Assembly: GCA_037893245.1 (NCBI GenBank)
Contig: JBAIAA010000904.1
Span: 372,001-436,000 of the forward strand
Source: Crossaster papposus
Lineage: Eukaryota > Echinodermata > Asteroidea > Velatida > Solasteridae
DNA length: 64,000 nucleotides
Reading direction: 5' to 3'
Shown here: positions 1 to 53,198 of the stretch, one piece after another
Layout of the letters: each line of letters starts with the position of its first letter
How positions within the stretch are numbered: the first letter of the stretch is position 1
Made by a program: the position numbers and the translations under genes
The notes under the pieces: model-generated
Databases searched by the model: none
What the model was told of the DNA's origin: nothing
What the model saw: the letters and a program-made list of their open reading frames with translations, nothing else

Positions 1-246
1 GAAAGAGCCGTTAGAATTTGAATTGTTGCGTCGTCATAGCTACGCTGCTTGTATCATCGCGTCATTATCTATTTTTTGTCGCCGGCGGCTACCTGACCTA
101 CATTTACACTACAATTTAGACGTATAGCCAAATGTGGTTTCTTACACGTCCGGTCAGGTAGCAGCCGGCGACAAAAAATAGATAATGACGCGATACAAGC
201 AGCGTAGCTATGACGACGCAACAATTCAAATTCTAACGGCTCTTTC
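1..246. repeat. Foldback (hairpin) element, probable MITE
   Basis: Bases 1 to about 100 are the near-perfect reverse complement of about 150-246, with a loop of roughly 50-60 bases. The outer ends read GAAAGAGCCGTTAGAATTTG and, inverted, ...TTCTAACGGCTCTTTC. The window begins at or inside the left arm, so the true left end and any target duplication cannot be seen. No protein is credible here: the open frame across the hairpin simply reflects the palindrome. This is a short nonautonomous DNA element or a foldback repeat; the superfamily is not assignable. Confidence 0.8.
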
Positions 247-276
247 CAAAAAAATAGCACAATGACTACAATGACC

Positions 277-1063
277 TAGCCTTGGTCAAGGCGAGTTCGT
301 CGTTATCCGTCCGTCGTTATCCGTCCAGAAATACACTGTGCGCGCGCCCCGCATTGCTAGCTTGCGCCCCATGCAAAGATACAGCGCGAACAGCGACCTC
401 ATACGGCCACTATTTATGCAAATCTACTGAGGCTACTTTTTCGCCTTGGATCATTGGGTTTTTGAAATCTTATGTTTTTCCTATATTTTGCGCCACATTT
501 GTGGCGCATGACCTCGTATGCGAATACAGATAAGTATAGGCGGGGCTAAGATGTGAAGTGTCCAATCACAACGCGGTTGAAACCCGACGTCATCAAATTT
601 GATGCAGCATGACATTTAAGACAAAATGGCAGATATTCAGCGTCGTCTTTCGTCCGAAGATCTGTCGTGTTGTTTGAATTTTGCAGCGAAAATATTATCC
701 CTCGAAGATTTTAGACCCGAGCAGCGAAAGGCCATTAGAATCCTTTCTTCGTGGTCTTTGTGAATTTGCCGACAGGTTATGGGAAATCCGTCATTTTTCA
801 GGCAGCCTGAGCCCCATTTTGCTCGGAGCTCGAACGTACGGCCAGGTACTCGGCGTCAGTTTTCAGCGTGTTCGGTCAGTTTCTTATCGCCGCATAATCG
901 GCATTAACCCAGGCATGCTGGTCTGTGCGGTATCGCCACATTGTGGTTCAAGCATGGTCCAACGCTGTGGGGAGGGGGCATGTTTACGGGTGCAGAACCA
1001 ACCTTCAAAGTGATCGCAATATCGTAATTTAAACAGGGACAAGTGTCTTATATCCCCAAATAA
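277..1063 (+). repeat. Left 787-bp terminal inverted repeat
   Basis: Matches 12837-13623 in inverse orientation; every stretch compared was identical. The outermost bases form an imperfect palindrome (CCTTGGTCAAGG, 279-291) followed by a direct repeat of CGTCGTTATCCGTC (298-326), a plausible transposase-binding site. The inner boundary is sharp: after CCCCAAATAA the two arms diverge (TATATC on the left, CTCCTC on the right). The arm contains a decayed RecQ-helicase start at 626-1013. It is far longer than the 13-28 bp repeats usual for CACTA elements. Confidence 0.93.
626..1013 (+). pseudogene. RecQ-type helicase N-terminal fragment inside the left terminal repeat
   Basis: An ATG at 626 (AAAATGGC context) opens a 45-codon frame to a stop at 761-763 that contains LEDFRPEQRKAI, the RecQ motif 0 pattern (FRxxQ). 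The frame then breaks: the continuation LESFLRG lies in a second frame and the Walker A stretch VNLPTGYGKSVIFQAA (754-804) in a third. Further on, LVCAVSP (about 919-939) recalls helicase motif Ia. Three frames are needed within about 180 bases and a stop follows the Walker A stretch, so the copy is dead. Family recognition is from motif order and spacing. It is probably a host or element gene fragment captured by the transposon and duplicated when the terminal repeats formed or were homogenised. Confidence 0.75.
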
Positions 1064-1629
1064 TATATCTTATATCCCCTTGGATCATTAGGTTTTGGGG
1101 GCGGTGCTCATTATGCTAATAGATTAAGCTGACCTTTATAGTCGTTTTCTTATTGGTCGATCGTTGCGTAGAAACTGCATAATTTGAGCTAGCGGTGAAA
1201 GGTCACTCTCTAAATTCCAAAGAGTGAAATAATCACTCGTTTTGCCGATTGAAAATATTGTCACTCTTATAGATTGAATTTCTGAGTCAGTACGAGTGAA
1301 ACAAATGAAAATAAATGGGTCGGGAGTGAGGATGAGATTGTTGTTCAATCTGTTTTAAAGATTGAAGTTGACTGTGCGTCATATCCAATAAGAGAAGTGT
1401 TTGGAATCACGTGGTGATTATGCTTATTTCTTTGATCCAATAACACGCGCCCATTTGGATCACGTGGTGACGCTATCTTGTGGGCAGTACCCGGTACGGT
1501 ACGGCCTGCATGATGATTCGCGGCAGGCTAGGCGGCTACAGCGCATCTAGCGCAGGCTGGCTAGGCGCGCGCGGCGATAGGCAGTACGTACGTACATCGG
1601 CGCTAGGCTGGGCCGGGATCCAGGATAAA
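1064..1629 (+). promoter_or_regulatory. Upstream region of the SAM-domain gene
   Basis: After the subterminal motif array (1200-1345), the sequence turns GC-rich from about 1480 and holds imperfect repeats of GCAGGCTAGGCG-like words (about 1520-1615) and an alternating GTACGTACGTAC run directly before the coding exon. No clear TATA box could be assigned. Position just upstream of exon 1 makes it the likely promoter/5' leader; this is inference from position and composition. Confidence 0.4.
1200..1345. repeat. Left subterminal array of TCACTCT/AGAGTGA and GATTGAA/TTCAATC motifs
   Basis: Within about 150 bases there are TCACTCTC (1203), AGAGTGAA (1221), TCACTC (1233), TCACTCTTA (1261), CGAGTGAA (1293) and GGAGTGAG (1324), interspersed with GATTGAA or TTCAATC heptamers. 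The same two motifs are clustered near the right end (12228-12440). Known: En/Spm-type elements carry subterminal arrays of a short motif bound by the accessory protein TNPA. Inferred: binding sites for a protein encoded by this element. Confidence 0.6.
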
Positions 1630-4600
1630 ATGGACATGGATAATCTCCGGCAATTCCTTTCGACGAAAGGAATAGACGAAACTTCAATGTTGGCACTTGA
1701 ACGTACGTAAACCTATATATAATCATGCATAATACTTATGTTTTAACAATAAGATATAGTTGTAGGATATAGTCCCTTATTTCTCCATGCTAGTCCTAGC
1801 CTACCGGCAATACCATATACCGTACGGTAACTAAATAATGATTATGTACATGTACATGTACGTTCGTGGTCGAGGTGGTCATGTTCCCGGGTTGTTGTTT
1901 TTTTCTGAAGTTTTCAGTCCCCATTGTCAAGGCCTATGCTATGCCTGGGCTAACTGATAGTTTTATTTTTTTAAAGCCATATGTTGGCCTCAATTATCTA
2001 ACACATTTAATTTCTAAGCAACCACACGGGGACGATTCGATTGCGCGTGTTTGTTGGGGAACATGTCAACTCGTACGCGAACCAAATCGTACACGGGGCA
2101 ACTCGTACGCAGATAGGTCAACTCGTAACCGGGACAACTCGTACGGTCAACTCGTACGCAGAACAACTCGTACTCGTAGTCGTACGCCAACCAATTAGTA
2201 CACCAGCCAACTCGTACGCGGCTCAAAATGTTGGTTTACGAGGTACGAGTGGCATTGATAAATAAAAAAGGCAAATACTCTAGCTGTTTAGGGGCATCTA
2301 CTATTACTAACTGACTAATCTAAGCCAAGGCAAGGCGAATCTGTAGGATTTTTTGCATTATTAACCTTGACCTACGTTGTACACATTTTAATTTGTCAAC
2401 AATTTTAATTCCATTTAAATGTAAGGATACTGTGCAAGTTGCATGAGATTCAGATCTGTTTAGTACGTCTCATCTCTTTTGGTTTTTAAGAAAAAGCTTA
2501 AGACTTTTCTTTTTACAAAGGCATTCGACTAATATTTTACTATTTATTAATATTATACATCTTGCTTTTAATTTCGTAATCATCGTTTGACATAACTTAA
2601 TTGTTTTAATAATTAATATTTTTAGACGAATGTTTTCCTTTGATTAGTATTTTTAAGATACATGTAACAAAAAAGTATACGAGTTGTCCCGCATACGAGT
2701 TTGTCGCGTACGAGTTGACCTGTATTCTGTTTTAATTGGGCTCTATTTCAAAATGACTTTCCTAAGCCTAAAAATTAAGCTTATAGACCCATATCATAAT
2801 TATCTCAAAATGACCCATTTGGGGGAAATTTCGGGCGGTAGCGTTAACAACATTGTAGACAAACAACACAGGAGTTATCTTCATAAAAACTTAAACTTTG
2901 CTGGGGGAGGGGGGGGAGGGGGGGGGGGGGGGGGGGGGCGGCTAGATGTGGTAATAAGGGAGTGTGTGGTTTTTAGGGAAAAGTAAGGGATTCTAGTTTA
3001 TAATTCATGTGACTTCCATCCTTGCAATGTACCTGTACATTTCACTCATTCCTTTTGCCCTTCAGTAGTAAAAGGGACTTGACTTAAAAAAAAAAAAAAA
3101 AAAGTTTTTCATTGTCATGAACTGTATACTTGAACATGGGCTGATACATGTATCTGCATGTCCGCCTGGGCCAATATGAGGATTGGTTTTTTTTAGTCCC
3201 TGCCTTATCCGTGCGTTTTCCCTGGGATACTCTGCTGGGGTTTTCCTCTCACTTCTAAAACTGTACCTTTTTCTCATTGTCTTCTCTTATACAGGTTTCT
3301 TCAGGCTTGCGAGCTACAGTGCCTAGAGAGCTTTTTGGGGGATCCTTAGTTTCATTACCGGAAATAATTGATTGATTAATTAATAATAACAAGTTCAAGA
3401 ATGGGTTACAAATGCTACAAATGTGGAAGATCCGTCAGTGACTCCTCGAAGGGATTAGCATTACATTTACGTTTAATTCATTCTTATCGCTTTGGAGAAC
3501 GATTAATTTGTGGTCAAGAAGGTTGCATGAAAATGTTCACATTAATGAATTCATTTCTAAGGCATATCAAACGTGAACACCCAAGGCCTGTACATATTCC
3601 TGTTAATGTGGAAGAAATTCATGTTGAAGAGAATGTCGGTGATGTTGGCAGTGATAGCTCAGAATCAGACAGAGATGACGAGAATGATATTGTGGATGAT
3701 CGCCAAGTTGAAATTGAATATTTGGAAAATTTTGACCTAGATTCATTGAAGACACTAGCTGTTTCTCTGATTGTGCAATTGAAATCTTCATCATCAATAA
3801 CCTTTTCTGCCATACAAACTGTTATGAATGGTTCAAAGCTCATGTTTCAAGACACAATGGCTTCACTTGGACATAGTGTGCTTAATGTTCTACAAGCCCA
3901 TGGAGTAGATACTAATGAAGCAGACGTGCGAGGCCTTTTGGAAAAATTCTCATCGTTAGCTAATCCCTTTGTGGGTTTGGAGACTCCTAGGCAGCAAATG
4001 AACTACTTGATTGAACAATTGATGTTAGTATCTCCAGTGGAGAGGGCCTTGGGCACAAGAATTGACCGTGTTATGGACAGAAAAAGTGGACAAATGGTGC
4101 AGAAGGTTGTAACAGAAACTTTTCAGTATATACCTGTTCTTGAAGTACTGAAGCTCATTCTCAGTGAAGAAATGACGGACCTTATTGATAACGAGCGAAA
4201 ATCCCCAGAGGGATATTTAGCAGGCTTCAGAGATGGTGAGCAGTATAAACAATTTGGGACTTTTGTAGAACATCCAAATGCTTTACGTCTACAGCTGTAT
4301 TACGACGATGTGGAGGTTGTGAATCCTATTGGAAGTAAGACAGGAATTCATAAACTTGGTCTGTTTTACTATTCAATCTTAAATCTGCCAAACCATCTAA
4401 ATTGCAGCATGAATAGTATACACCTTCTTGCAGTCTGCTACGCTTCTGATCTAAAACGTTATGGATTTGAACCAATTTTGCAACCCTTTGTTGAAGAAAT
4501 GAAGCAACTTGAGGGTGATGATGGTGTTGATTTGGAAATGGATGGTCAACAAGTGAGAGTTCGTGGTACTTTAGTATCATTTAGTGCCGACTCCCTGGCT

Positions 4601-7600
4601 GCACATGACCTGCTTGGCTTTATGAGCCCCTCAGCAAATAGTCTTTGCAGGTTGTGCAAAGCTAACCGTGCAGATACACAGGTCATTTTTTTGGAAGAAG
4701 ATTTTGAGATGCGTACAATTGAAGAACATGATGATTGTGCAGAGGCTGTCGCTCGAAGGGTGAATGGGGATCCAGCAACTGGCATACGGAAAGGGTGTAT
4801 TTTGAATACATTGCGGAATTTCCACTGTGTTACAAACTATAATTTAGATATAATGCACGATATGCTGGAAGGCGTATGCCCATATGAGGTGAAGTTGTTA
4901 CTCCATCAATTTGTTTTTGTAAATAATTTCATAAGCTTACCTGAGCTAAACAGACGACTGAAGTTGTTTAACTATGCTCTAACTGATCGAAAAAACAAAC
5001 CATCTGCTCTGATGTCTGAGCGTCTGAGAAACCTTGCTGATCATAAACTTGGACAAAAGGCCTGCCAGATGTGGTGCTTAACAAGGATGCTGCCTCTCAT
5101 TGTTGGGGACAAGATTCCACAAAACAATGCCTACTACGACCTGCTGCTGCTCCTTCTTCAGTGCATGGACATTATATTTTCTCCCCAGCTTTCTGTAGGG
5201 CAGACACAGTTCTTGAAATACCTCATACAAGATCACCATGAGCACTTCAAGATCTTGTTTCCAAATGAAAGGTTCATAAACAAGCATCATCACATGGTTC
5301 ACTACCCAACCTGCATAAAAATGGCTGGACCTATGTCAACCATGCAGTGCTTAAAGTATGAAATGAAACACAACTTCAGCAAGAGGATGGCCTCGGTTAA
5401 CTGCAATTTTAAGAACATTGCCAAGTCAGTTGCATGTAAACATCAAGTGCTGCAGTGTGCTGTGTGGTCTGGAAATGGGCTAAGACTTGACTTTGAATGC
5501 AAAGGGGGTTGTGTAACTGCAGTCGAGTCAGTTTTAGGTCATGAAGCCATCAGAGAAAATCTCCAAATTCAAGGAGATGATGTGTTTGTTGCTAGTCAAA
5601 TTAGGCTCTATGGAACCGAGTACAAACCAAATCTGTACTTGGTGACACACATGTCTGAAGAGAGAGGATTGGAACCCCAGTTCAGTCGTATTTGCAGCAT
5701 TTTGGTTTGTGGGCAAACACCAGAAGACGTCCATTTTGTTACTATAAAGACCACTGTGGAGGGATTCTTTCCACATTTCCATGCATATGGTATACATGAA
5801 GTTGAACATCCACCGACATATGAAATAGTTCAGCTGCACAATCTCGTTGACCATCTGCCCCTTTCTGCTTTAAGAAGCTATGAGAGGGGCTCAACTGTGT
5901 ACGTGTGCCCAAGATATTCTCTGATGCAACCAAGGTACAATAACATGTTGTGATATTGTGATAAAATGTGTGACCCAATGTCAAACCAAACAAAAACAAT
6001 GGCCTAACACATTTAAGGCACTTGAGGTAAAGTAAAGACTGTCAATTTTATAACAGTCATGTAATTTGTCCATATAGGTAATGATGTTGACCTGGATATG
6101 TTGTCTTCACTTACTAAAGATGACCTAAAAGAAATTGGTGTCAGCTCGTTTGGCATGCGAAGACGAATAAAGCTAATCATAGAACAAATGGACAAATCAG
6201 AATCAATTCAGGTAAGTAAATCCAGGACAATTCAGTTTAGCTAGGTGAGTAAGTAGCAAATAATTTGTACATGACTACATTTAAATGATTTAAATGTGCT
6301 TAATTGTAAAATTTTAGAGCTGCGTGATTATACGTATACAGATTTTTTCACCCCTTGACGCCGGGAATGGCTGATCGAAGCCCACAAAATCGTTTGGAAA
6401 GCTGTTGTGCTATATATTCCCGTAGAACATGGTCTGTGCCACAGTGCATGCAGTGCAGCTACTGGACAAGGGCTGCTGTGCAGTCATGCATCAATTAGCT
6501 ACATGAATATTCACCTTTCCAATCAGACTGGGTGTATTGATCAATATGTGTTGACTGAATTTAATGCAAATCTGATACTCAACATATTTCATGAATGCTG
6601 AATTTGGTGTCCATACTCATGATTTGCTTTACTCACTCCAGGATATACAGACCAGCACTCCATCAGATTGTGATGGGCTTGATTCATCACCATCTACAAA
6701 GAAGTTTAAATCTTCGTTAGACTCCAATTCGGTAAGCTGGCAATATTTCACTTATGAACAAGTAAAAATAGACTATCTGACGGTGACGACGCTCTACGCG
6801 TAACATACGTTACTCGTGTACTACATTGTGTACTTCCCTGAAACTTCATTTCGGCCACTGGTTTTAGGCTTTATTTTGTACGAACCTTCTTCAAAAGGAG
6901 ACATGATCTAGCTAGAATAGTGATTGACATTTGTAATCTGCTGTCACTTTGCAAGAGTCGCTTGTTCACCACAATCTAAATTCGCCATGTTTGGTTGCTT
7001 TATTCGCTTTGATTTTCAAGATGGCGTACCATGGTAAAGGTTTGTTGTAGTGCATTTTTGCATTTAATAATTATTTAGTTTTTGTGTTTCCCAGACATTT
7101 AACCTCAGACAGGCCCTAACAGAGAATTATCCAGATGTCATAGCCCGTCTGGACGAAGGGGGTGTCCCAAACATGCAGATGCGCAGGACGCTGATCCGTA
7201 TTGCAGTTGCAGCCTTAATAAAGAAGTTTGGTCCGTGAGTACAACATTGATTTAAAAACCCAAGTAGTTTTACTTTAAGAATAAAATGTCGGCTCCAGAA
7301 TGTCAGCTCATGAATAAAAAATGTTCCTAATTAGGAGAATTCGTGATTCTTGAGCTGACGAACTAGTGCTCAATGTGTGCATGCACACACATAGGTTGAA
7401 AATATCCTTTAAGTTAAAAATATTCTCATTAAAAATGTATTTCATTGTGTTGAATATGACAGATACCCAACTTCGATGCAGAAAACTGCTCTCGCAAAGG
7501 AAATAGTGCAGGTGTTTCCTTCTTCTCGGGATGCAACTCCTGGATTGGAGGGCTATGTAAGTTCATAATGTAATTGACTTTAAACAATACACAATACCGG

Positions 7601-10600
7601 CTGGCGCTCTACCAACTGAGCTATCTTGCCCTACGTTGGCGGTCTCCCAAATTGTCAGTATCTTTGTTTGACGGCGCTAGTCAGAAGTCATAAATGCCAG
7701 ATTGGCGTATAGACATGGATCACACCAGATTTTACGACTGACTGGCGCCCTCGAACAAAGATACTGACAATTTGGGAGACCGCCAACACCGGGCAAGATA
7801 GCTCAGTTGGTAGAGCGCTTGTCTGGTATTCCGAAAGTCCCATGCAAGTTCAAGCCGCATTGCCGATTTCTTTGTTCACTTTGAAATTCTACTTTAAACA
7901 AGAAAAATGTTTGAGTTTGATCTTATGAATTGAATGCAGTAAATATTAACCCTAACTCCTTTTGGTGATTTACTGAGAACCTTCCTCATCCTTGCAAATC
8001 CCAACACCCTGTGCTGTTAAACTGTGCACTAAACAGCTGGACTCCATCAAACCCTTGTGTTGGATTAATAATAATTTCCCTTGTAAATGTCTGGAGACCC
8101 ATTCCGGGAAAACTATTTGTTTGTTTACACAATACATTTACCACTGTTTCCCATGGCCAGCATCACAAGCATTCATAGTCAATTTTGCATGATGCATGCA
8201 AATGCACACACAAATTTCACTAAATCCACCATTTCATTTCTTCATTTGTAGAATTATGATAAAGCAACAGAACAAAAGCATTTAGTGAGAAGTATAGTAC
8301 CAAAACTACTGGAAAATATTTGTATTTAAAAGTTGTAATGCTTTTATTTGTAGGAGCATTTCTACGACAATGGCCAAGGCTTCATCGAGTATCGACTAAA
8401 AACAATTAGGACATCCTTGAAACTGACGGACAAACGACGACGCCCATCAAACTCATCATCTACCAGTCCAGATGTGTGTTCAGTTGAGAACGATGTGGAA
8501 ATTCCAGATCAGCAAACCATAGAAAAGGTAATTTTACAATTTATTGTGGAGGCAGTTTTTAAAAGGGCTGACTGAAAATGGGACTTGGGAATCTGGATTC
8601 TAACAACCTTCTGATGAGTGATGCTCAATATGGCTTAAGACGTTCTAGATCAACCGGAGATCTTTTGGCTCTATGCGCAACTCTCTTCCCCAACATTTGT
8701 TTTCACCCAGTACAACTTGGCATCATTCAAGAAAAAATATTTACTGGTGTTTATTGAAGGTCAACTGGATGAAGTATTCACCACCAACAAAAGACAATGC
8801 AGCCAAGCACAGGATGTATTTCAAAGACACCTTCAAAGTTCGCCGTCAGTTTGTCCTGAAGAAACCAGAAAAGACCATAACTGAAGTAATTGCAGAGTAT
8901 CCGAGATTTAAGGATCTTCCACAGCTGGTAAGTAACTGCAGTATTTCAATGGTTAAACTTGGAATGAGTGTGCAATTGAAAATGTGGTGCATATGGTATC
9001 TCAAGGCCGAATAAGTTGAGGTTAGTCGATGTTGGTTAATATGATACAGAATAATAATAATATCAATAGTTAAGTAGGTTATTGGTTAACTTGTTTAGTG
9101 GCAGTATAACCTCAGTGCATTTTATTTAATAAAAAGCCTTGCTCTCCACAGTTGAGACCGTTAGTCAGAACACTAAAATTTGGTTGTTTTATTGCTTCAC
9201 TGCGTTTATTCTGTATTTCTTGTTTTAAAAAACTTGCATGAATCTGCAAAATTGCACTTTATTGTTGTTTGTTCTGCAACTTAAAAAATACTATAACAAT
9301 GTGATATGTATTTCCCCAGATAAACTTGGACTTTGAGACTATGTTCCCAGAAGAATGCGACAAACTACTGACAACGTGGGATTCCTTCTACCGGGATCGC
9401 ATCATTGCTGTAGGCGCTCAAGAATCCGAATCTGTTTGCGACCTCATTAAATTATTTGAGCATAAGAACAGTAAGTTTACTTGCACAGTGTGTATACAAA
9501 ACTAGGTAAACATGTAAAAGTTATGAAATAAAAAACCTAAAATGACTCCATCTGAAATGGTGGTTCATATCACTTCAGTCATTGATTGTTCTCAATAAAA
9601 TTAATAAAGACATCAATGAAAAGATAATGAACCACTTTTGACGGTGTTCAAGTTCTTATTTTATTTCCGCACAAACACATTATTTTGAGATCATAGCTGT
9701 AGCAAAACCTCTTTACAGTGCAGTTTGCATAAACATGCTTATTACTGAGGCCAGTTTATACTTGAGTTGTATGGAGTCAATCAAAAGTCAATTTACAAGT
9801 CGGGTAAATATTATCAAAAGAAATAATAACAAAAGCATGCTTTTAGGATAGGGACTGAATGAATTGCTATTGACACGAACTCGGCTTAGAAATGACAATT
9901 TCTTGTTGCATTACTCATGATGTCAACAATGGACAAGAACATCACAAATATTATAGTCACTCGCTTTAGTTTAATCATTCTAAGGCAGTGACTCAATGGG
10001 TTTACAAGGTAAATTCAAACCACATTCTTGCACAGGTTAATTCATGTCACTGTAGCACCATCCTGTTCAGTACATGTATACAACAAATTAAGGGTGGGGT
10101 CAGTTCCACTTTTCTTCTTAAATTTCAATTCAATTTGATGTTAATTTCAGTAATGAATTGTTGTATTTACCTGTAGTTGTCAACTGCATTCTTACACAGG
10201 AGATATCTGTGCCTTGCACGTTCTTACTTACCTGCTACATCGATCTGTTAGCAGGAAGAAAGGACAGAGGTCTCCTGCAGCAACTAGACCTGAGGCTGTC
10301 CTCTATGTTATCCAGAACATACCAGTAAGTTCATAATGAGTTTTAAAGAGTACATGTACATTGTATGCAAATGTGCAGCCATTTTGTTCATACTGAGATC
10401 GATATATCAAATTGAAAATATTTTGTTCACCGAGTTTTGTGACTCAAGTCAAATTGAGTCAATTAGGTCGAAAAGTTGAGTCTAGTTATTAAGTATTTTG
10501 ATTGAGTAAATTTGAGTCATAAATCGCCACAAGGCCAATTATAAAAAAAAATGCATCTAAATTTCAATTCCAGAATAGTTTTTATTCTGGAAGTGTATGT

Positions 10601-11407
10601 GTATACATTTTGCATCATAAATCTTTGCAAATATTTTCTGCAAAGTTTTGCTATTAGTGCTATTAGCCTACATTCGGGTCAAGTCAAGTCTTTAGATAAA
10701 GTCAAGTTATTTGCATGGAGTAACTTTAGAGCGTGCCGAGTAATTGACTTGAGTCATTACAACTTTAGGGCCAAGTCACACCAGGAATTTTCACAACCAA
10801 CTTACGCTATTGGATTCGGAACCATACGGGAACAAGTACATTTTGCTAACAGTTTGGCGGGTTGTTTCCTCAAATTTAAATACAAGCCAGCAAGCGTTTT
10901 ATTGAAAGTTGCCTTTTAAATTGTCTTGTGTAACATGCCCTCTCCCCCTCGCATGAATGTTCTTAATATCGCCAAATTTGAAAACATTTTGTTATCGCAT
11001 GTGTATGCCTGTGGAATGCATAGTAGTTTGAAACTAGACTACATCTGCTCTCAGATATTAAGTTCCTGTTCTTTGGTTCACAGGATGGGTGCGATGTTCA
11101 AGCTGCAGCAGCTGACAAAGACAGCAAATACACCCAGCCATATCTGCTGTCGGTGGGACCAGAGAAGCAGCCCAAGCAGTTCTTTCTCATTCTGGATAGA
11201 ATTGCTATTTCTGCTGGGATGAACCTGGTGCAAGCCCTAGACATGCTGTTCAAATCACATTATGTGTTCAATGTGGAGTACTCGCTTACACAGCTGCAAT
11301 TTTGGGATTTTTTTGCTGCGATGGTGTACAAAGTTATCAAGCCAGCAGAGGCAAAGCCTGCTATTCGTTCACTTGCAACAATGTTGAGTGGTATTGCTCT
11401 AAAGTAG
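1630..11407 (+). CDS. SAM-domain protein of the transposon (SAMD3-like), ten exons, 490 aa
   Basis: Exons read as 1630-1702, 6078-6211, 6642-6731, 7095-7234, 7463-7556, 8354-8527, 8760-8927, 9320-9470, 10200-10324 and 11084-11407. All borders are GT...AG and the phases join without a break, giving 490 codons plus TAG. Exons 1 and 2 together make one SAM domain (residues about 3-62; LRQFLSTKGIDE at the start, LTKDDLKEIGV near the end), typical of protein-protein or self-association. Residues about 100-180 include FNLRQALTENYP and YPTSMQKTALAKEIVQVFP; about 178-190 read EHFYDNGQGFIEYRLKTIR. From memory this resembles the SAMD3-like proteins abundant in fish and invertebrates, which have similar length. 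Intron 1 (1703-6077) contains the entire zinc-finger/Tnp2-like gene. Its position matches tnpA of En/Spm, so a role as accessory DNA- or transposase-binding factor is plausible but unproven. AATAAA polyadenylation words lie at 12059 and 12122. Confidence 0.82.
2030..2725. repeat. Array of CAACTCGTACGC-type words in intron 1, with inverted copies at the far end
   Basis: Between 2067 and 2220 the word CAACTCGTACG or a close variant recurs about eight times at irregular 15-25 base spacing. At 2678-2722 the inverted form (CGTACGAGTTG, ATACGAGTTG) appears three times. Short open frames across it on both strands arise from the repeat and are not genes. It may be the remains of a foldback insertion or a regulatory array. 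The stretch 2270-2670 between the arms is AT-rich and featureless. Confidence 0.6.
2903..2938 (+). repeat. Poly(G) tract
   Basis: About 36 bases of almost pure G, broken only by two A, upstream of the transposase-like gene in intron 1 of the SAM gene. It can form a G-quadruplex in principle and is also a place where assemblies are unreliable. Confidence 0.85.
3401..5953 (+). CDS. Putative CMC/EnSpm-type transposase, zinc finger + Tnp2/DUF4218-like, 850 aa
   Basis: One uninterrupted frame. Residues 5-27 and 37-60 form two C2H2 fingers (C5-x2-C8-x13-H22-x4-H27; C37-x4-C42-x12-H55-x4-H60), likely DNA binding. Residues about 65-110 are acidic. The core shows LYYDDVEVVNPIGSK (D302/D303) followed by YYSILNLP, resembling the D-GFNPFG...NLP pattern of Tnp2; NLDIMHDMLEGV (D483, D487), resembling Tnp2 LDVMH; and HHHMVHYPTCIKMAGPM followed by KYEMKH (E654), resembling the DUF4218 block (HLPxxxxxxGP...ERY). 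D302/303, D483 and E654 are therefore candidate catalytic DDE residues; this is pattern inference, not alignment. The gene lies wholly in intron 1 of the SAM gene, same strand. The ATG at 3401 precedes the first zinc finger by four residues; a spliced upstream leader is possible. No frameshift or stop is seen, so it may be functional. Confidence 0.8.
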   Translation: MGYKCYKCGRSVSDSSKGLALHLRLIHSYRFGERLICGQEGCMKMFTLMNSFLRHIKREHPRPVHIPVNVEEIHVEENVGDVGSDSSESDRDDENDIVDDRQVEIEYLENFDLDSLKTLAVSLIVQLKSSSSITFSAIQTVMNGSKLMFQDTMASLGHSVLNVLQAHGVDTNEADVRGLLEKFSSLANPFVGLETPRQQMNYLIEQLMLVSPVERALGTRIDRVMDRKSGQMVQKVVTETFQYIPVLEVLKLILSEEMTDLIDNERKSPEGYLAGFRDGEQYKQFGTFVEHPNALRLQLYYDDVEVVNPIGSKTGIHKLGLFYYSILNLPNHLNCSMNSIHLLAVCYASDLKRYGFEPILQPFVEEMKQLEGDDGVDLEMDGQQVRVRGTLVSFSADSLAAHDLLGFMSPSANSLCRLCKANRADTQVIFLEEDFEMRTIEEHDDCAEAVARRVNGDPATGIRKGCILNTLRNFHCVTNYNLDIMHDMLEGVCPYEVKLLLHQFVFVNNFISLPELNRRLKLFNYALTDRKNKPSALMSERLRNLADHKLGQKACQMWCLTRMLPLIVGDKIPQNNAYYDLLLLLLQCMDIIFSPQLSVGQTQFLKYLIQDHHEHFKILFPNERFINKHHHMVHYPTCIKMAGPMSTMQCLKYEMKHNFSKRMASVNCNFKNIAKSVACKHQVLQCAVWSGNGLRLDFECKGGCVTAVESVLGHEAIRENLQIQGDDVFVASQIRLYGTEYKPNLYLVTHMSEERGLEPQFSRICSILVCGQTPEDVHFVTIKTTVEGFFPHFHAYGIHEVEHPPTYEIVQLHNLVDHLPLSALRSYERGSTVYVCPRYSLMQPRYNNML
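7594..7868. repeat. Hairpin repeat with tRNA-like (Pol III box) sequences, in an intron of the SAM gene
   Basis: Bases 7594-7685 and 7738-7830 are inverted copies around a loop of about 50 bases. The right arm plus downstream sequence (7791-7866) looks like a tRNA gene: A box TAGCTCAGTTGGTAGAGCG and B box GTTCAAGCC, with GGCAA near the start able to pair with TTGCC near the end. The left arm holds the A-box half in reverse. The cloverleaf is imperfect, so this is a tRNA-derived SINE or foldback element rather than a working tRNA. It interrupts only intron sequence (7557-8353). Confidence 0.65.
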
Positions 11408-12224
11408 TTACTTGAGTAGGAACTAGAGTTGTGACAAGTTTCCAGAGACTACCTGACCAACAAAAGCGATTGTGCGGTCTCAGTGTGTTGTTGTTTTATA
11501 GTAACTAAATTCTTTATGCATTTTGTGCAGTGAAAAAAGCTTCAAAACAGTTAACTTCCAGTTTTTATATAGCAGTTAATTGCAGCACTGCTGGCGGGTT
11601 TGTACTTTGCATCATCATGACCTATACAAACTAAATCGTGAATTGGTTGTTAGGTTGATTATTTGGTGATCAGCCTGTTGCCTCTTGTTTGTTTGATTAA
11701 ACTCCCATTTGTTATATGGGTCATTTTGATGTACATTGTAGATTGTTGGTTTTTCTGTACATTTGGTTTCATTTTAGTTATTCGGGTATTGCCTGGGTCT
11801 TTATTGGTTTTTCTGCCCGATTGCCTTCTGTCCTATTAATGGGTCTTTAGTTTTCATGTAGTGTATTTGTTGTTTGTTCGTTTGGACTTTTCTTGTCTTG
11901 GCTGGTTGTGTGTTTGTGCAATAATGGCAATTTGATTGGGTGTTTTTACCGTGGCTCCCATGTTATTTGATTTGCCAACTTTTTTTTTTACTATGTGTGT
12001 CAAATTTGGAAGAGTACTTTACATTTTTAACTTTGTTTATGTGCAAATTCATTTTATGTAATAAAGGAATCTATTTGTTCTTTGTTAATAATACATGTAC
12101 ATTGTACATTCTTTATTCTGCAATAAACAAAACGTTTTTTCTTGAAATGTTGATTGTTGTGCATTTTCTCCCCACTATAGACATGTTGTTTGCAATTAAT
12201 CTTTACCATTAATAATCGCTCCAA
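11408..12224 (+). other. 3' untranslated region and spacer of the SAM-domain gene
   Basis: No coding frame is convincing. T-rich stretches and two AATAAA words (12059-12064 and 12122-12127) follow the stop codon by about 650-720 bases and are candidate polyadenylation signals for the SAM gene transcript. Confidence 0.5.
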
Positions 12225-12445
12225 ATTAAGAGTGAGCCAGCCGTTTCAATCGGATTTAGAGTGAAATTCAGTCAATCGAACAGAGCGAATTCCAATCTTA
12301 ACTAAGAGTGATTTTCTTCAATCTGAAATTAGAGTGATTTTCACTCCTAATCGTCTTGTCCCTAGTTCCAGTGGGTGAAAGAGTGGAAATTCACTCTTTA
12401 AGAGTGAATGTTCAATCGTTGGAATTAAGAGAGAGCTAGCTCGCA
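12225..12445. repeat. Right subterminal array of AGAGTGA/TCACTCT and TTCAATC motifs
   Basis: AGAGTGA occurs at about 12229, 12257, 12305, 12331 and 12402, with TCACTC at about 12340 and TCACTCTTTAAGAGTGA as a palindrome at about 12392-12408. CAATCG/CAATCT-type words separate them. No gene overlaps this stretch. It mirrors the left array in motif content but not in exact spacing. Confidence 0.6.
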
Positions 12446-12836
12446 AGTGTTTACGAACACCGCCATCGTTGACATATTTTATCGGGAGAAAGTTGAGTGA
12501 TTTTTACGAAGGCTTGTAGGAATTACACATGAAGATTTGAACTGTCTTGCTTGATTGGTTAGGGTCGCAGTTATTTTCGCTCGTTTTGCTGGGTATTTTC
12601 TTGAATGTTGACAATGTTATGGTCAAAACTAGTTGTGTTTAGCTGCTTAGTTTTGAGTTTTCAACCGCGGTGACTGGAGAAAGCCGCGACTCTATTGAAA
12701 CGTGTCGAACTCGGCCCTACATTATTTCGCACACATCTAATCCAGCTGATCTGAAAACCGTGGCTCGGTAAAACGCGGAACTCTGATAATTAAATGCCTT
12801 GCCGGTTGAATTTTGCCAAGAAAATAATCTGAGGAG
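12446..12836. other. Spacer between right subterminal array and right terminal repeat
   Basis: About 390 bases with no gene. It contains AACCGCGG..., TGAAAACCGTGGCTCGG-like words resembling each other at 12660 and 12757, but no clear array. Nothing else is seen. Confidence 0.5.
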
Positions 12837-13623
12837 TTATTTGGGGATATAAGACACTTGTCCCTGTTTAAATTACGATATTGCGATCACTTTGAAGGTT
12901 GGTTCTGCACCCGTAAACATGCCCCCTCCCCACAGCGTTGGACCATGCTTGAACCACAATGTGGCGATACCGCACAGACCAGCATGCCTGGGTTAATGCC
13001 GATTATGCGGCGATAAGAAACTGACCGAACACGCTGAAAACTGACGCCGAGTACCTGGCCGTACGTTCGAGCTCCGAGCAAAATGGGGCTCAGGCTGCCT
13101 GAAAAATGACGGATTTCCCATAACCTGTCGGCAAATTCACAAAGACCACGAAGAAAGGATTCTAATGGCCTTTCGCTGCTCGGGTCTAAAATCTTCGAGG
13201 GATAATATTTTCGCTGCAAAATTCAAACAACACGACAGATCTTCGGACGAAAGACGACGCTGAATATCTGCCATTTTGTCTTAAATGTCATGCTGCATCA
13301 AATTTGATGACGTCGGGTTTCAACCGCGTTGTGATTGGACACTTCACATCTTAGCCCCGCCTATACTTATCTGTATTCGCATACGAGGTCATGCGCCACA
13401 AATGTGGCGCAAAATATAGGAAAAACATAAGATTTCAAAAACCCAATGATCCAAGGCGAAAAAGTAGCCTCAGTAGATTTGCATAAATAGTGGCCGTATG
13501 AGGTCGCTGTTCGCGCTGTATCTTTGCATGGGGCGCAAGCTAGCAATGCGGGGCGCGCGCACAGTGTATTTCTGGACGGATAACGACGGACGGATAACGA
13601 CGAACTCGCCTTGACCAAGGCTA
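12837..13623 (-). repeat. Right 787-bp terminal inverted repeat
   Basis: Inverted partner of 277-1063. The outer end reads ...GACCAAGGCTA and is followed by ACATAAGCCCAGTAATT, which is block R found elsewhere as ACATAAACCCAGTAATT (32261, 45894, 56328). This places the right transposon border at about 13621-13623. Confidence 0.93.
12887..13274 (-). pseudogene. RecQ-type helicase N-terminal fragment inside the right terminal repeat
   Basis: Exact inverted twin of 626-1013: the ATG maps to 13274, with the same frame breaks, Walker A pattern (PTGYGKS) and stops. Identical decay in both arms shows the damage preceded, or was homogenised by, the process that keeps the two arms alike. Confidence 0.75.
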
Positions 13624-14375
13624 ACATAAGCCCAGTAATTAGAATTAACACAATGGTACTTAGCCTAAATTAATTTGTGAAAACGTAAATTCAAGTTTTC
13701 CTACATTGCTGCCCTTTCTGTTTAATGTGTTTTTCCATAATGAAAGGGGTGCACGTGTTTACGCGAGCGCGGCCGAAAATGTAACAATGATGTGTGGCTC
13801 TTCGTGAAAAAGAAAATACCCTTGACCTACTTTTACGCCTTTCTATGCAATACATTTTGTACACTACACGTTCAAGGGGCAGTAACGTTTGTCTCTTCGT
13901 GAAAATACAAAATGCAATTTTCGAGATGGCTGCATGCCCCTTGCACCAATAATGCAACTCAAATAATCAATACTGTTTTGCTAACAGAAGCACGCGAATT
14001 TCTTTTTACAGCGTTTTAAAGCAAAACAGTTAGAGAAAAAAAAAAAAAAAAAAAAAAAATGTCAAGTTTGACATGTGTGGCTCTTTGTAAATACAGTGTA
14101 TGTGGCTCTTAACATAAGTTAAGAGTTTCAGAGAACACTATTTTGTTCGATTTGAATAATTTCGATGCGATAAATATTGATGATTGGGCTTTATATTTGT
14201 GTGTGACAGATTTGTGTGTGCACGTGCGTACGTTAGTAAGGGATTCTCTTGGTTTCCGGTTTTCAGTTGACAATGACCAAACAATGTACAAATGTAGAAC
14301 GATATACAACAGTAAACTGAACTATTGGCATGTCATTGGTGATTAGAAACAGACATGACTGGTTACAATGTCACG
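13624..14375. repeat. Repeat block R, copy 1 (3' flank of TRIM units)
   Basis: Begins ACATAAGCCCAGTAATTAGAA and recurs at 32261-32930, 45894-46600 and 56328-57030, each time ending just downstream of a TRIM exon 2 (ACTGAACTATTGGCATGTCA). Recognisable sub-blocks include GGCGCACGTGTTTACG, AAGATGGCTGC and GACCAAACAATGTACAAATG. The open frame around 14143 recurs in copies at 46366 and 56793 but starts at TTG and is broken in other copies, so it is not taken as a gene. Confidence 0.8.
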
Positions 14376-14607
14376 TAACACCTGGTGATACATCTTGACT
14401 GAGTAGTAGTCAGCCACACCAGCTGCCCATCTGATGTGAATGTGATTATGTAGGGCCAGTGCAGACCCTGTGCAATGCACTTGAGAAAGCGACCTTGAGG
14501 GTCATAGTGGTGGATACGACCCGTGGTAAAATCATTATACATTGCAACATAGATAAATATACCTGAGCAACCAGTGCACACACCGCGGCAGCGCTGTACT
14601 GGTTGAC
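14376..14607 (-). pseudogene. TRIM-NHL exon 2 scrap (locus 0)
   Basis: Matches the last third of exon 2 of the TRIM-NHL genes (for example GIYVAMYN, HHYDPQG, FLKCIAQG). The normal stop is mutated, frames are disturbed near the end, and two small insertions break the NHL strand pattern. At 14607 the match ends abruptly after CTGGTTGAC and joins ATTTTCGCTTATTCTATTTAGCAC, which is block C sequence (compare 29459 and 44232). It is the leftover edge of an earlier duplicated unit. Confidence 0.85.
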
Positions 14608-15840
14608 ATTTTCGCTTATTCTATTTAGCACTTTCTGAATTCATAAAATTAAAAGGGAAACGAATCAGGCAAGATGCGAAGTAATTTGTTTAATTCTAGT
14701 CTAGTTAATTCAGTTTTAAATATCTGTCTTTAACCCAAAGAAGTAAAATATAAGTTAGCAATGCGGGAAAATTATACATGTGTGAAAGTCAAAATCAAAC
14801 AGTAAACTTTGGCAATATTTATCCCCGCTTTTTATCGCGTATACACATAGTTGTTATGCTAAAGGTGAATTCGAATAGCCAAACTGGCGCAACTGGAAGT
14901 TCGAGCGAATTCGGGCGATTCACAATGCAGTGCGCCACCAAGCGTTTGACTCAAAAGAGCCACTTTTAAACTTTACGGTCGACTTCTTCCGTATATCATA
15001 CTGTAGTTAAATATCTATTCTGCATTGTTCACGCGAGGTACAACACAGACATCAATGTATCCGGAAGCGTCGTTGGTTAAAACATTGTTATTTGCAGAAA
15101 AAAATTGGAACTTTAATCGTGCGCGTCAAAAAAAACGTAAAAACTGATGAGTTCATGCAAAATGAATACCGTTTTTCAAACTGATGCCGACTTTTCCCCA
15201 TGATGCACTGCGAGTATAGCAGGATTTGCGCCTCCAACGGCAGCTTCTAGGTATTGTGAATCGCTCGAATTTGAATGACCAAATGTGAAATGTTAATGTC
15301 TCATTCTTGAAATTGAATTGTTGCAAAATACTGTTGAATGCATCGAGATTGAAATTGAACAATATATTTAGTTAATTGAAATGTTGATCTAAAACGTGCA
15401 TCCAAATTCGTGCGAAAATGGGTGATTCGTCATCATTTGGCTGCCAAATCTATTAAACTGACCGGGAAAACCTATATTAAAAGTATAGTTTTAGATTAGC
15501 TATGTACATAGATGTTGCTATGACTAATACATTGTACTGCCATCAGCAAACATAATCAAAGAAAATGATTTTGACGATTTAAAAAAAAAAAAAATGTAAA
15601 TAGAGAACAAAAGAGGTCCAATTGTGGATCCTTGAGGGACAGCATATGGAATTTGTTTAGAGAGAGAACTCGTAAAGACAAATAATTATAATACCATGGT
15701 TAATAGTATCAAAGGCATTAGAAAGGTTAAACAAATATTTCAAGTGTACTAATAAAAGGGGTGAATTAATATTAGTAGTTACTTTAGATATTAGATATAT
15801 TACATTTATATTAAACAGTATAATATATTTTAAATAATGA
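14608..15840. repeat. Degenerate tail of block C plus spacer
   Basis: Pieces match block C of the other units: the GTAATTTGTTTAATTCTAG part (14682), TTTATCGCGTATACACATAG (14830), GCGCAACTGGAAGTTCGAGCG (14887), and GTGCGAAAATGGGTGATTCGTC followed by TTTGGCTGCCAAATCTATT (15411-15455). The latter region gives the empty-site sequence for the insertion at 30497-31171. No gene is seen. Confidence 0.65.
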
Positions 15841-16249
15841 CCTACTTTTACGCTATTCCATGCAATATATTTTGTACAAGATCAAGGGGCAGTAACGTTT
15901 GTCTACTCTCTTCGTGAAAATGCATTGTCAAGATGGCTGCCCCCTTGCACCATTAATGTAATCTATATGGATAATAGTGTTTTGCTTACAGAAGCATGTC
16001 AAAATGGTTAAGTACAGCGTTTTAAAGCAAAATAGTGAGAGGAAAAAATCAATGAAAATATCAATGATTGAGCTTTATATTTTGTGTGACGGTACAATGC
16101 ACGAGCGTTGGTAAGGGATTCTCTTGGTTTCCGGTTTCAGTTAGCAATGACCAAACAATGTACAAATGTAGAACGATATACAACAGTAAACTGAACTATT
16201 GTCATGTCATTGGTGATTAGAAACTGACATGACTGATTACAATGTCACG
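15841..16249. repeat. Second, truncated copy of block R before TRIM copy 1
   Basis: Starts in the middle of block R (GACCTACTTTTACGC at 15839) and runs to the TRIM exon 2 end with the usual CAATGACCAAACAATGTACA and ACTGAACTATTG words. It shows that block R occurs twice within 2.5 kb here, once before the exon scrap and once before the intact gene. Confidence 0.7.
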
Positions 16250-19086
16250 TCACACCTGGTGATACATCTTGACAGAGTTGTTGTCAGTCACTGCCAGCTG
16301 CCCATCTGATGTGAATGTGATTCCAAAGGGACAGTACAGACCCTGTGCAATGCACTTGAGAAAGCCACCTTGAGGGTCATAGTGGTGGATATGGCCCGTG
16401 TTATAACCATTATACATTGCAACATAGATACCTGAACTATCAGTGTACACACCGCGGCAGCGCTGTACTGGTTGACCATTGATGGTGGGTTTGATAGTGC
16501 ACCGTGTAGTACCATTAACATCAGCAACATTTACTGTCTGTGACTGTGAACTGATGACAATTCTATCATTGCTGTCTACAGCCAGATAGTAAGGTTTAAC
16601 CTTGACTGGTATGGTACGTAGGAGCTTACCATCAGTGGGCCTGTGTTCAGTCAACACCAGCCTCTTGACATCACCTACTACGATGGTACCATCATTCTTG
16701 ACAGCTACACTGTAGAGGTCCACTGCGGTCTTACCGACCTCACTCGGTGGCACTGTTGGGAACTCAAAGGCCAGCGTGTTGTCGCTGTTGAACACCTTCA
16801 CATGGGATTCGCCTCCCTCGACGACCACCAAACGATTGTTGGTGCGTGTAGCTGCGATGCGGTGTGGACCTGTAGGAGTCATGATGTCAAAACAAACAGA
16901 CAAGCATTAAGCATTTATTGCACAATCCGTTCAAAAAAGACATTCTTGAAAGAGTAAAAACTTTAGAAAAATGCCTGTCAAAAATACATTGTTCAGATTT
17001 GGTGTACATGCTTGAGAAATCACCACGTCTTATAATTCATCTTGATGGTGTTTATTTATGCCCCAGATTGTGGGGCATAACATGCTTCACCATGATTTAT
17101 CTTTCTGTGTAAATAATGTGCTATATAGAATTTTTTTAAATGCCTAAGAGTGATAAACATACACTGCAAAAACTGTGTTTAGCTCGTAAACACTTTTCTA
17201 AACACTTTTTTCTATCAGTTTGTAAACGTTTTTACATGCTAAACATGCCTGTTTAGCATTAAGGATGGAGTTTCAGTAATTGAACATCAATGTTTAGAAA
17301 TTGGATACGGGTATTAGCTGCAAAACATGTCAACTGTTTACTCGGTAAACACAGGTTTTGGAGTGTAAATCTGTGGATATCGTTGTTTACCGATGTTTTC
17401 TTTCATCAAATTCACAGTATTTATGTGTTTTTTTTCTCTGTAACTATCAGATGTATTTTGCTTGGAATTCTCATCTTTTGCAAAGAGCTTCAGGAATAAA
17501 GCAAATCAAATTACTGAGGTGAAATTTTCATTTTTGGTTTGTCCACTTTTGAAATGTTGTTTTCATGGAATATACATTGAAGTTGAAAAACATTCCCATG
17601 TCATGAATACCAACTTATTGAATACAGTAAATCATTATTTTGTTTTAAATTTTACAGTTTCAATGGAGTTTTATTTCCTTTTGTTTTTACCTTATTTGTT
17701 AAAAGTTTAAATACAGAGAATATTAGTGAAGAGCGAATGGAAATTGTTCAAGTGCATAATTTCGCAGATGGCATGTAATTTTAACTTACGTCCTTGCATC
17801 GGGATTGTGCTTTTCTGGTTGCCATCGATGCTGCAGATCACGACTCGTTTGTTGTTGTAGTCAGTCACTGCAATCTCATCAGGTTGACGAGCAGCAATGC
17901 CCCAAGCCCCTTTGAACTCTCCTGGACCGCTTCCCTTTCTACCAAACTCCCCACACAGCTCCCACTTGTCTTCCATCACCACCTCACCCAGATTGATGTC
18001 ACCAATCCCCCCACTCTGCTTGAACTTCAGAAATGCCAGCCTGTCATCAACTCTAGGAATAGCCTGACCGGCCAACCGTTTCAAGTCTTCGCTGATTGTA
18101 AGATACAGTGACAGGAAGTCACTATCCGATGCAGTCCTTGTCACCTCTCTAGCTGTATCTAGTGAAAACTGAAACCTCTCCATAGCCAAGCTCGCGGTTT
18201 TCTCACATTCTTCCAGTTTCTGCTCACGATCCGATTGAATGTTTTTGATGTCGTCAAGAATGCGATTTTCTTGGGCCGTGATCTCTGCTCGTATCTTAGC
18301 TGCTCTGTCTTGCACTTCTGTTGTGACCCTCCTGAGTGTGAGACTCAAATCTTCTTTCAGTCGTAAGACTTTTTCTTGTGATTCTTGGATTTGCTTCATT
18401 GAGTTTTCAAGTGGATGAAACAGTTCAGCCAACGATTGCTTGTAAGTGGATGCTGCCTCGTATCCCTCAATGTACGAGTGTTCTGGCATACGGTGGTTTA
18501 CGACCGTACAGTCTCGGCAGATGAGTATTTCACACGTGGTACAAAAGAACCTTGCTGCTTCGCCTGCATGGATCGGACATTTTGGATGTTGTTTCTGATG
18601 TTTCTTTGTCAGTGTAACCTTCCCCTCACGAATGTCCTTCAGTGGAGTCACCTTGTGGTTAGATGAGACAGCAAATCGAAGATGCATTTTACTACAGACC
18701 GAGCACAAATTCTGGTCGCAGTCCAGACATCTATGCGTTGCCTCATTGGCTTCCTCACAAATACCACACAAAATACTAGCATCACCCAAACACACTACCT
18801 TCTCCTGAAGTTCAATCTCCTCAACCAAACCGATTAGATGAAAGTTGGTTTTCAGACCCTGCACCCCCGCCTCTGTAAGCTTCGTCTCCTGTCGACACAC
18901 GGGGCAAGGAATCTCCGTACAGCCCTGGTGCTTCGTGCTGTGGTATTTTAGCAGACATTGCTCACAGAAACTGTGGAGGCATTCCAGTATCTTAGGCCGT
19001 TCGTATCTCCCTTGACAAATGCAGCATTCCAGATGCTGTCTGCTAATTGTCTCTAGAGCTAAGCTTATCGCAGGTCCGGTCGCCAT
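16250..19086 (-). CDS. TRIM-NHL protein, copy 1 (two coding exons, 638 aa)
   Basis: Minus strand: exon 1 is 19086-17790 (432 codons plus one base), intron 17789-16870 (GTAAGT...TACAG), exon 2 16869-16250. The split codon joins to Arg and the frame stays open. Domains: C3HC4 RING (C21, C24, C36, H38, C41, C44, C61, C64), B-box 1 from about C107, B-box 2 from about C170 to H203, coiled coil about 215-315, then NHL repeats from about 376 (FGRKGSGPGEF, IAVTDYNNKRVVI) through exon 2 to QLAVTDNNSVKMYHQV. RING/TRIM proteins are usually E3 ubiquitin ligases, cytoplasmic, with NHL propellers that bind RNA or protein; substrate here is unknown. Shorter than vertebrate TRIM2/3 because there is no filamin domain. 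A strong splice acceptor (TTTTTTCCAG) lies ten bases before the ATG, so a noncoding first exon is likely. Confidence 0.9.
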
Positions 19087-26110: not shown

Positions 26111-26589
26111 AATCGTTTAAATGAAACGCTAAGCACATTCATTTATTTGAATTAAACAAAATAAAATTGAATTCTCGTTTTTGCGAAAATGAAACTCGGA
26201 CATACGTCGTTCTGAAAATCAGCTCGATATTGAATGCACCTTTTACAAATGAATGTGTAAATGTTGCGATATCGTCCGGGAAAACCTATCATTGATGTTC
26301 ACCTTGTATCTTTTTGGTATTGAAGTGGTCAAGTTTACTTTTTCTTAAAAACCTGAGAATATATTCTTTCCATAACACCTTTTGTCATCCGTTTATTTAA
26401 GATTTTGGGAAACATTCCCGATATAAGGCATATAATTTATTTTCGTCGAAGTTTTGTGTTTATTTGTATTAGGCCTACTGTGTAGTTGGCCAACAACTCT
26501 GTGGTGAGTCTGACGGTCCGCATTGGGTTATTTTGCATACCAGCACCGCGGAAACCGCTAAATACAGGGGATGACCGTTCGCTCAATCG

Positions 26590-27924
26590 TCCGCTCATGA
26601 AGGGACCAAGAGCTCACAAGGGACTCTAGCTCGCCCGCTTATATGAAGAGGACCAATAGCTCATACGATACGATAGCCCGTCCGCTTATGAAGGGTACCA
26701 AGAGCTCATAAGATACGATAGCCCGTCCGCTTATGAAGGGGACCAAGAGCTCACAAGGGACGATAGCTCGCCCGCTTATGAAGGGGACCAAGAGCTCATA
26801 AGATACGATAGCCCGTCCGCTTATGAAGGGGACCAAGAGCTCATAAGGGACGATAGCTCGCCCGCTTATGAAGAGGACCAAGAGCTCATAAGATACGATA
26901 GCCCGTCCGCTTATGAAGGGGACCAAGAGCTCACAAGGGACGACAGCTCGCCCGCTTATGAAGGGGACCAAGAGCTTATAAGAGACGATAGCTAGCGCGC
27001 CCGCTTATGAAGGTGACCAAGAGATAAGAGACGATAGCTAGCCCGTCCGCTTATGAAGGGGACCAAGAGCTCACAAGGGACGATAGCTCGCCCGCTTATG
27101 AAGGGGACCAAGAGCTCATAAGATACGATAGCCCGTCCGCTTATGAAGGGGACCAAGAGCTCATAAGGGGCGATAGCTCGCCCGCTTATGAAGAGGACCA
27201 AGAGCTCACAAGGGGCGATAGCCCGCCCGCTTATGAAGGGGACCAAGAGCTTATAAGAGACGATAGCTAGCCCGTCCGCTTATGAAGGGGACCAAGAGCT
27301 CACAAGGGACGACAGCTCGCCCGCTGATGAAGGGGACCAAGAGCTTATAAGAGACGATAGCTAGCGCGCCCGCTTATGAAGGTGACCAAGAGATAAGAGA
27401 CGATAGCTAGCGCGCCCGCTTATGAAGGGGACCAAGAGCTCATAAGAGACAATAGCTCGCCCGCTTATGAAGGGGACCAAGAGCTCACAAGGGACGATAG
27501 CTCGCCCGCTTATGAAGGGGACCAAGAGCTCACAAGGGACGATAGCTCGCCCGCTTATGAAGGAGACCAAGAGCTTATAAGAGACGATAGCTAGCGCGCC
27601 CGCTTATGAAGGTGACCAAGAGCTTATAAGAGACGATAGCTAGCGCGCCCGCTTATGAAGGGGACCAAGAGCTCATAAGAGACAATAGCTCGCCCGCTTA
27701 TGAAGGGGACCAAGAGCTTATAAGAGACGATAGCTAGCGCGGCCGCTTATGAAGGGTACCAAGAGCTTATAAGAGACGATAGCCCGTCCGCTTATGAAGG
27801 AGACCAAGAGCTCATACGAGACGATAGCTCGCCCGCTTATGAAGAGGACCAAGAGCTCATAAGAGACGATAGCTTGCGCGCCCGCTTATGAAGGGGACTA
27901 AAAGCTCATATGAGACGATACCTT
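26590..27924. repeat. 45-bp minisatellite array (about 28 units)
   Basis: The unit reads about CCCGCTTATGAAGGGGACC, AAGAGCTCATAAGAGACGAT, AGCTCG. Most units are 45 bp, others about 49-51 bp with an extra GCGC or TAGC. Because 45 is a multiple of three, long frames stay open on both strands: plus reads AYEGDQELIRDDSSP per unit, minus reads VPFISGRAIVPCELL. The longer units break both frames. A shorter array of the same unit is at 42452-42720. No evidence of a real protein. Confidence 0.9.
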
Positions 27925-53118: not shown

Positions 53119-53198
53119 CCTGTCTTGTCGTTTCTCTTTCTCATTAGGGCGATCTCTTTCTAAACCACCTGCCGACTGCCCAGCATCCGCAGGTCCAT

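Follow-up and report, generated by a model that had tools for sequence, protein, structure and literature searches.

Two described transposons are close to the element reported here. In maize En/Spm, the accessory gene tnpA is made up of 11 exons, and the large reading frame of intron 1 forms part of the tnpD transcript (PMC2613891). In SmTRC1 of Schistosoma mansoni, the short spliced transcripts leave out the transposase frame, and a longer transcript contains two frames one after the other (PMC1636069); an En/Spm-like transcript pattern was thus published for an animal element in 2006, and the principle is therefore not new to animals. Here we describe an element of 13,347 bp at positions 277-13623 of a 64,000-nt stretch of the Crossaster papposus genome (GCA_037893245.1, contig JBAIAA010000904.1), the whole of which we call the window. 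Taken as a whole, the element is very probably a full-length two-gene transposon of the CMCT (EnSpm/CACTA-Mirage-Chapaev-Transib) clade, expressed from one transcript with a splice choice. As judged from the reading frames and splice sites, its transposase frame appears to be nested in intron 1 of a multi-exon accessory gene, which is the En/Spm-type plan. The parts of the two genes, with the evidence for each exon in brackets, are as follows.

1630-1702, plus strand: accessory exon 1, N-terminal half of the SAM domain (exon model, relatives, random-sequence test)
3295-3400, plus strand: possible leader of the transposase mRNA, following a pyrimidine-rich acceptor (by consensus only) and with no ATG before 3401
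3401-5953, plus strand: transposase open reading frame, 850 aa, no stops, with two C2H2-like fingers, a RAG1-like DDE core and a C-terminal domain resembling BAH
6078-6211, plus strand: accessory exon 2, C-terminal half of the SAM domain (exon model, Pfam)
6642-6731, plus strand: accessory exon 3 (exon model)
7095-7234, plus strand: accessory exon 4 (exon model, relatives)
7463-7556, plus strand: accessory exon 5 (exon model, relatives)
8354-8527, plus strand: accessory exon 6 (exon model, relatives)
8760-8927, plus strand: accessory exon 7 (exon model, relatives)
9320-9470, plus strand: accessory exon 8 (exon model, relatives)
10200-10324, plus strand: accessory exon 9 (exon model, relatives)
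11084-11407, plus strand: accessory exon 10 with the stop codon (exon model, relatives)

Spliced in silico at GT-AG sites, the ten plus-strand exons of the accessory gene give a stop-free frame of 490 aa; 128 combinations of candidate splice sites were free of stops, and the model chosen is the one that fits the relatives. Intron 1 (1703-6077, 4375 bp) holds the entire transposase open reading frame on the same strand. A first-pass annotation of this DNA had placed the transposase gene wholly inside the first intron of a same-strand accessory gene, had given the same intron length, and had described ten exons joining in phase and two genes without stops, all of which is borne out by the coordinates above. 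Its comparison with maize, where the tnpD frame lies in intron 1 of a tnpA gene of about eleven exons, agrees with PMC2613891.

Residues D302, D397, C416/C419, H630/H634 and E654 are present in the transposase and in 29-30 of the 30 aligned proteins, and under the CMCT definition of catalytic and zinc motifs in PMC12730594 the catalytic acids would be D302, D397 and E654. The predicted fold resembles RAG1 over about 460 residues, with 13-16% identity in structural alignments. LDIMHDMLEG (482-491) would fit the TRC motif [LVI]-D-x-[LM]-H-x3-L-G of PMC1636069 but for an E that stands in the place of the second L. Pfam gave DUF4218 at E 0.029 (14.7 bits, under the curated cut-off of 27) and no Transposase_21 (PF02992); of the 30 aligned proteins, six match Transposase_21 (best E 3.5e-5) and four match DUF4218 (best E 0.0039). 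The profile check proposed in the first-pass annotation was therefore weakly positive, with PF13960 below its cut-off, PF02992 absent from the protein itself and matches as strong as 3.5e-5 in relatives, while its assignment of the protein to the CMC type is supported by the catalytic and zinc-motif residues and by the predicted fold. Viral contigs gave no pattern match with a single protein query and 78 pattern matches, none of them a relative, with an alignment query; in the prokaryote genome contigs searched there were 27 pattern matches and again no relatives.

The accessory protein carries SAM_1 and SAM_2 above the Pfam cut-offs, in keeping with the earlier description of a SAM-domain gene. 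At E values up to 1 these two were its sole Pfam matches, and neither a plant TNPA family nor a recognised DNA-binding domain was among them, though remoter homology is possible. With P0053 as a proxy for the protein (mean pLDDT 70.3), Foldseek returned no PDB match at E < 0.001. We found 28 accessory relatives among 7997 candidates scored, the closest being P0053 and P0056 from the sea cucumber Apostichopus and P0054 and P0055 from octocorals. P0053 and P0055 have a SAM N-terminus that matches exon 1 and is joined to the remainder at the identical residue. Against these two N-termini the exon-1 peptide scores 23.0, which puts it first among the 135 phase-compatible candidates from 1-6077 (runner-up 2.0) and among the 1431 candidates on the plus strand of the window (runner-up 15.5); none of 200 random 6-kb sequences (first-order Markov) reached that score, the null maximum being 20.5. 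Exon 1 is followed by the donor sequence GTACGT. A further 22 relatives are fish proteins (P0059-P0080) that match the accessory protein in its C-terminal part, at 25-31% identity over 39-80% of the query; in the four fish sequences examined the SAM domain is replaced by another N-terminus, and the fish proteins may serve other transposons as partners or be domesticated copies.

The pairing of the two genes recurs in relatives. Four of 31 Pfam-scanned relatives (P0016 and the Holothuria gene models P0007, P0022 and P0023) run from a transposase into the second half of a SAM domain, and in each the fusion point is at or beside the residue where exon 2 begins here. An Apostichopus model, P0057, runs from the C-terminus of a transposase into later accessory exons. 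The fused models are probably gene-prediction chimaeras, yet they show that in other elements, too, the transposase lies just before accessory exon 2. With a transposase joined to the latter half of the split SAM domain in three sea-cucumber models and in P0016 as well, the pairing is old. Transposase-accessory adjacency was seen in the sea-cucumber models and P0016 only, and the cnidarian P0054 and P0055 were not seen beside a transposase; among 7989 candidates scored for long fusions that contain the accessory portion of P0007, the sole hit was P0007 itself. When the three Holothuria models, split at the fusion point, and the window element were compared all against all, the transposase and accessory identities of the six pairs were 63/50, 54/43, 51/38, 55/45, 49/40 and 48/38.5 percent (rho 0.83, p 0.04); the six pairs are not independent, and this parallel divergence is therefore supportive only. 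Both the fused models and the parallel divergence back the two-gene nested plan put forward in the first-pass annotation.

Both genes lie between one pair of long inverted repeats, and the signals within and beside these repeats are listed here.

277-1063, plus strand: left terminal inverted repeat, 787 bp, starting with TA, possibly a target-site duplication
1204-1267, no strand assigned: left subterminal cluster, 3 CACTCT/AGAGTG
12060-12127, plus strand: candidate shared polyadenylation signals, AATAAA at 12060 and 12122
12229-12406, no strand assigned: right subterminal cluster, 7 CACTCT/AGAGTG
12837-13623, minus strand: right terminal inverted repeat, 787 bp, its outer edge marked by the start of homology among three paralogous flanks at 13624

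The two arms are 100% complementary over 787 nt. Their edges read TAGCC..GGCTA and may be parsed as TA, then GCCTTGG...CCAAGGC, then TA. Paralogs of the right flank occur in the window at 32250, 45894 and 56323 with about 90% identity (BLAST, default scoring, joined flanks as query), and all three matches start exactly at 13624. The right outer edge is thus a real boundary, backed independently by three paralogous flanks. Intact frames together with identical arms suggest recent movement, though gene conversion can also yield identical arms. By eye, each arm (626-800, mirrored at 13100-13274) also seems to contain the start of a RecQ-type helicase gene in broken form, with LPTGYGKSVIFQ readable in one frame, and this may be a gene start that was captured; of two pieces of it scanned against Pfam, one had no match and the other matched DEAD at E 0.051.

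Within the element, CACTCT on either strand is found in the two subterminal clusters and nowhere else, and there are 11 copies in the 50 kb after the element. No 6-mer clustered in this manner in 1000 random sequences or in 77 real control segment pairs (k-mers with fewer than 3 different letters excluded), under a condition that was chosen after the data had been seen. The two clusters extend the parallel with En/Spm. The 200 bp from 1464, in which exon 1 begins, have a GC content of 60% against 40% for the window, and this composition makes them a possible promoter region. No AATAAA or ATTAAA was found between the transposase stop and exon 2.

Several observations weigh against the reading of a full-length, nested, two-gene element. 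The clustering condition applied to CACTCT was a post-hoc choice, and when raw counts are taken by themselves, 66 of 500 random sequences contain a 7-mer that is just as common and 31 of 500 such an 8-mer (single-base runs included). The clusters lie 140 and 430 bp internal to the 787-bp arms and do not adjoin the ends. The subterminal repeats of the maize element are placed otherwise relative to its ends. For a likeness between CACTCT and the maize TNPA site, a 12-base string ending ACACTCTTA, no printed source was found, the full string being absent from the 10 papers listed out of 34 matches. Further copies of AATAAA are present at 2261 and within several introns of the accessory gene, and the signals near the right end are therefore consistent with one shared 3' end and do not single it out. 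The predicted transcript from exon 1 to 3295 contains a short upstream reading frame. The fused models are predictions, and no model examined unites all three of exon 1, the transposase and exon 2. Lastly, a target-site duplication was looked for at both edges and only a palindromic TA was found in common. The three right-flank paralogs carry TT just before base 13624, where the element edge has TA, and no counterpart of the left flank was detectable upstream of them (local scores 17, 19 and 18, inside the shuffled range), so that these comparisons give no evidence of a target-site duplication.

Some of these points would also fit a history in which the 787-bp arms came from a different, outer mobile element that was combined with a CMC element whose true ends are internal, an unlikely alternative with which the nested plan is compatible. 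The internal position of the subterminal clusters, the RecQ-like frame seen by eye in the arms (DEAD E 0.051) and edges that are not the CA..TG reported for most CMCT elements in PMC12730594 speak for it. However, a scan for inner end pairs with a duplication returned 53 weak pairs (at least 10 of 14 bases), the best two matching at 12 of 14 with 3 bp, and two control segment pairs gave none and one (12/14, 4 bp), so that no inner termini candidate is convincing; the right outer edge, moreover, is a real boundary.

It is quite improbable that the two genes, although belonging to one transposon, are adjacent and separately spliced, with the exon at 1630 unused, the accessory gene starting elsewhere and no true nesting. 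Adding exon 1 brings no gain in the Pfam SAM scores (SAM_1, 28.4 bits with exon 1 versus 32.1 for exon 2 alone; SAM_2, 26.7 versus 27.5), and two of the four close accessory relatives, P0054 and P0056, have different N-termini; both facts speak for separate splicing and against nesting. Against it stand the rank of the exon-1 peptide as the window's best candidate for the two relatives with a full N-terminus, a score unmatched in random sequence, the identical junction residue in those relatives and the GTACGT donor. Transposons in introns are common and the short exon 1 could be a host's, but that the SAM gene is a host gene with a CMC transposon in its first intron by chance is highly improbable given that one pair of identical 787-bp inverted repeats encloses both genes, that relatives keep the order of transposase then accessory, and that the two proteins diverge in parallel.

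For the nested two-gene element, the most likely mode of expression, modelled on maize and SmTRC1, is a single primary transcript with a splice choice. A promoter region upstream of 1630 would give one primary transcript that can be processed in two ways, following the scheme of maize En/Spm. Removal of the whole 4.4-kb intron would join the SAM halves and yield the 490-aa accessory protein, whereas retention of the intron, or entry at the acceptor before 3295, would yield the transposase, in an RNA that would carry the accessory exons downstream as far as signals near 12060-12122. The splice choice would thereby set the ratio of accessory protein to transposase. The transposase would cut and join the element ends. 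By analogy with TNPA, the accessory protein may bind the CACTCT repeats of the subterminal clusters, perhaps as a multimer formed through its SAM domain, and assist in pairing the ends or in regulation of the element; its role as an end-binding or end-pairing factor is an inference.

The element resembles En/Spm in having a transposase frame in intron 1 of a multi-exon accessory gene (11 exons in tnpA, ten here), in its subterminal repeats and in a DDE core related by motifs. Unlike En/Spm, its edges are not CACTA, its inverted repeats are 787 bp and not the 13 of maize, its exon 1 would be protein-coding, and its accessory protein has a SAM domain without a Pfam match to plant accessory families. 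Strict EnSpm/CACTA termini (CACTA or CAC..GTG with a 3-bp duplication) were found neither at the outer edges nor among the inner candidates, and PF02992 and PF13960 did not exceed their curated cut-offs; because the termini fail, we file the element in the CMCT clade and not in strict CACTA. We give a minor chance to the further proposal of a conserved animal lineage of CMCT transposons, common at least to echinoderms and cnidarians, with a SAM-splitting nested transposase and a plan homologous to that of plant En/Spm, in which one splicing switch would predate the plant-animal divergence and the accessory protein would have been replaced or changed beyond recognition.

SmTRC1, of the TRC group, is likewise an animal CACTA-like element with a Transposase_21-type protein, and its transposase-skipping transcripts are published; it differs in being about 4.5 kb, in its 54-bp repeats starting with CCC and in that its other protein portions are reported as not detectably conserved, and a SAM domain is not named in the Results of that paper (PMC1636069). 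The terminal CCC core suggested there for animal elements is absent from the edges here; these start with GCC if the TA is counted as duplication and otherwise with TAG. ESTA, an EnSpm-like element, shares the CMCT motifs, the similarity to RAG1 and a TA beside the repeats; it is reported from fungi and has TA duplications, where the TA at the edges here is a candidate duplication (PMC12730594). The predicted fold and the DDE and zinc motifs are also those of the RAG1/ProtoRAG/Transib group, from which the low identity to RAG1 and the lack of any RAG2-like partner seen in the element set it apart. Among the matches listed from open-access literature (titles and starts of abstracts; Repbase and most subscription journals lie outside this set), we found no SAM-domain accessory gene in a CMC element. 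The SAM partner, its split around the transposase and its occurrence in echinoderm and cnidarian gene models were thus not found in the literature searched.

If the reading is true, nesting with a splice-controlled ratio of two proteins would be a recurrent or ancestral control device of CMC elements and not a plant peculiarity. With its intact frames and identical long ends, this copy could be used to test a two-protein CMC system of animals directly. How two-component recombinases arose could usefully be compared with a RAG1-like transposase whose partner is not RAG2, and the SAM partner could explain some uncharacterised SAM-domain models of sea cucumber and octocoral, such as P0022, P0023, P0053 and P0055.

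Other repeats lie in and beside the element. The left flank is mostly a fold-back at 1-246 (arms 1-55/192-246, 100%; 56-98/152-194, 98%) that ends 30 bp before the left edge. In intron 1 upstream of the transposase, 2055-2235 and 2678-2732 contain short repeats around CAACTCGTACGC, with inverted copies about 500 bp downstream. Intron 5 contains an inverted repeat at 7604-7818 with 81-bp arms (93%) and, by eye, tRNA-like box sequences; ARAGORN called no tRNA in it, and it is perhaps two tRNA-derived repeats head to head. An Rfam scan of 1-16000 gave no match at gathering score. Elsewhere in the window, repeated minus-strand frames that look TRIM-NHL-like by eye occupy 16250-19086, 34176-36931, 46614-47192 and 57041-58658, in duplicated blocks of about 85-97% identity. 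Long minus-strand frames at 49052-54404 resemble a gypsy-type retrotransposon, with gag-, protease/reverse transcriptase- and integrase-like parts by eye, and at 26587-27920 many self-matches overlap at intervals of about 45 bp, which points to an array of tandem repeats.
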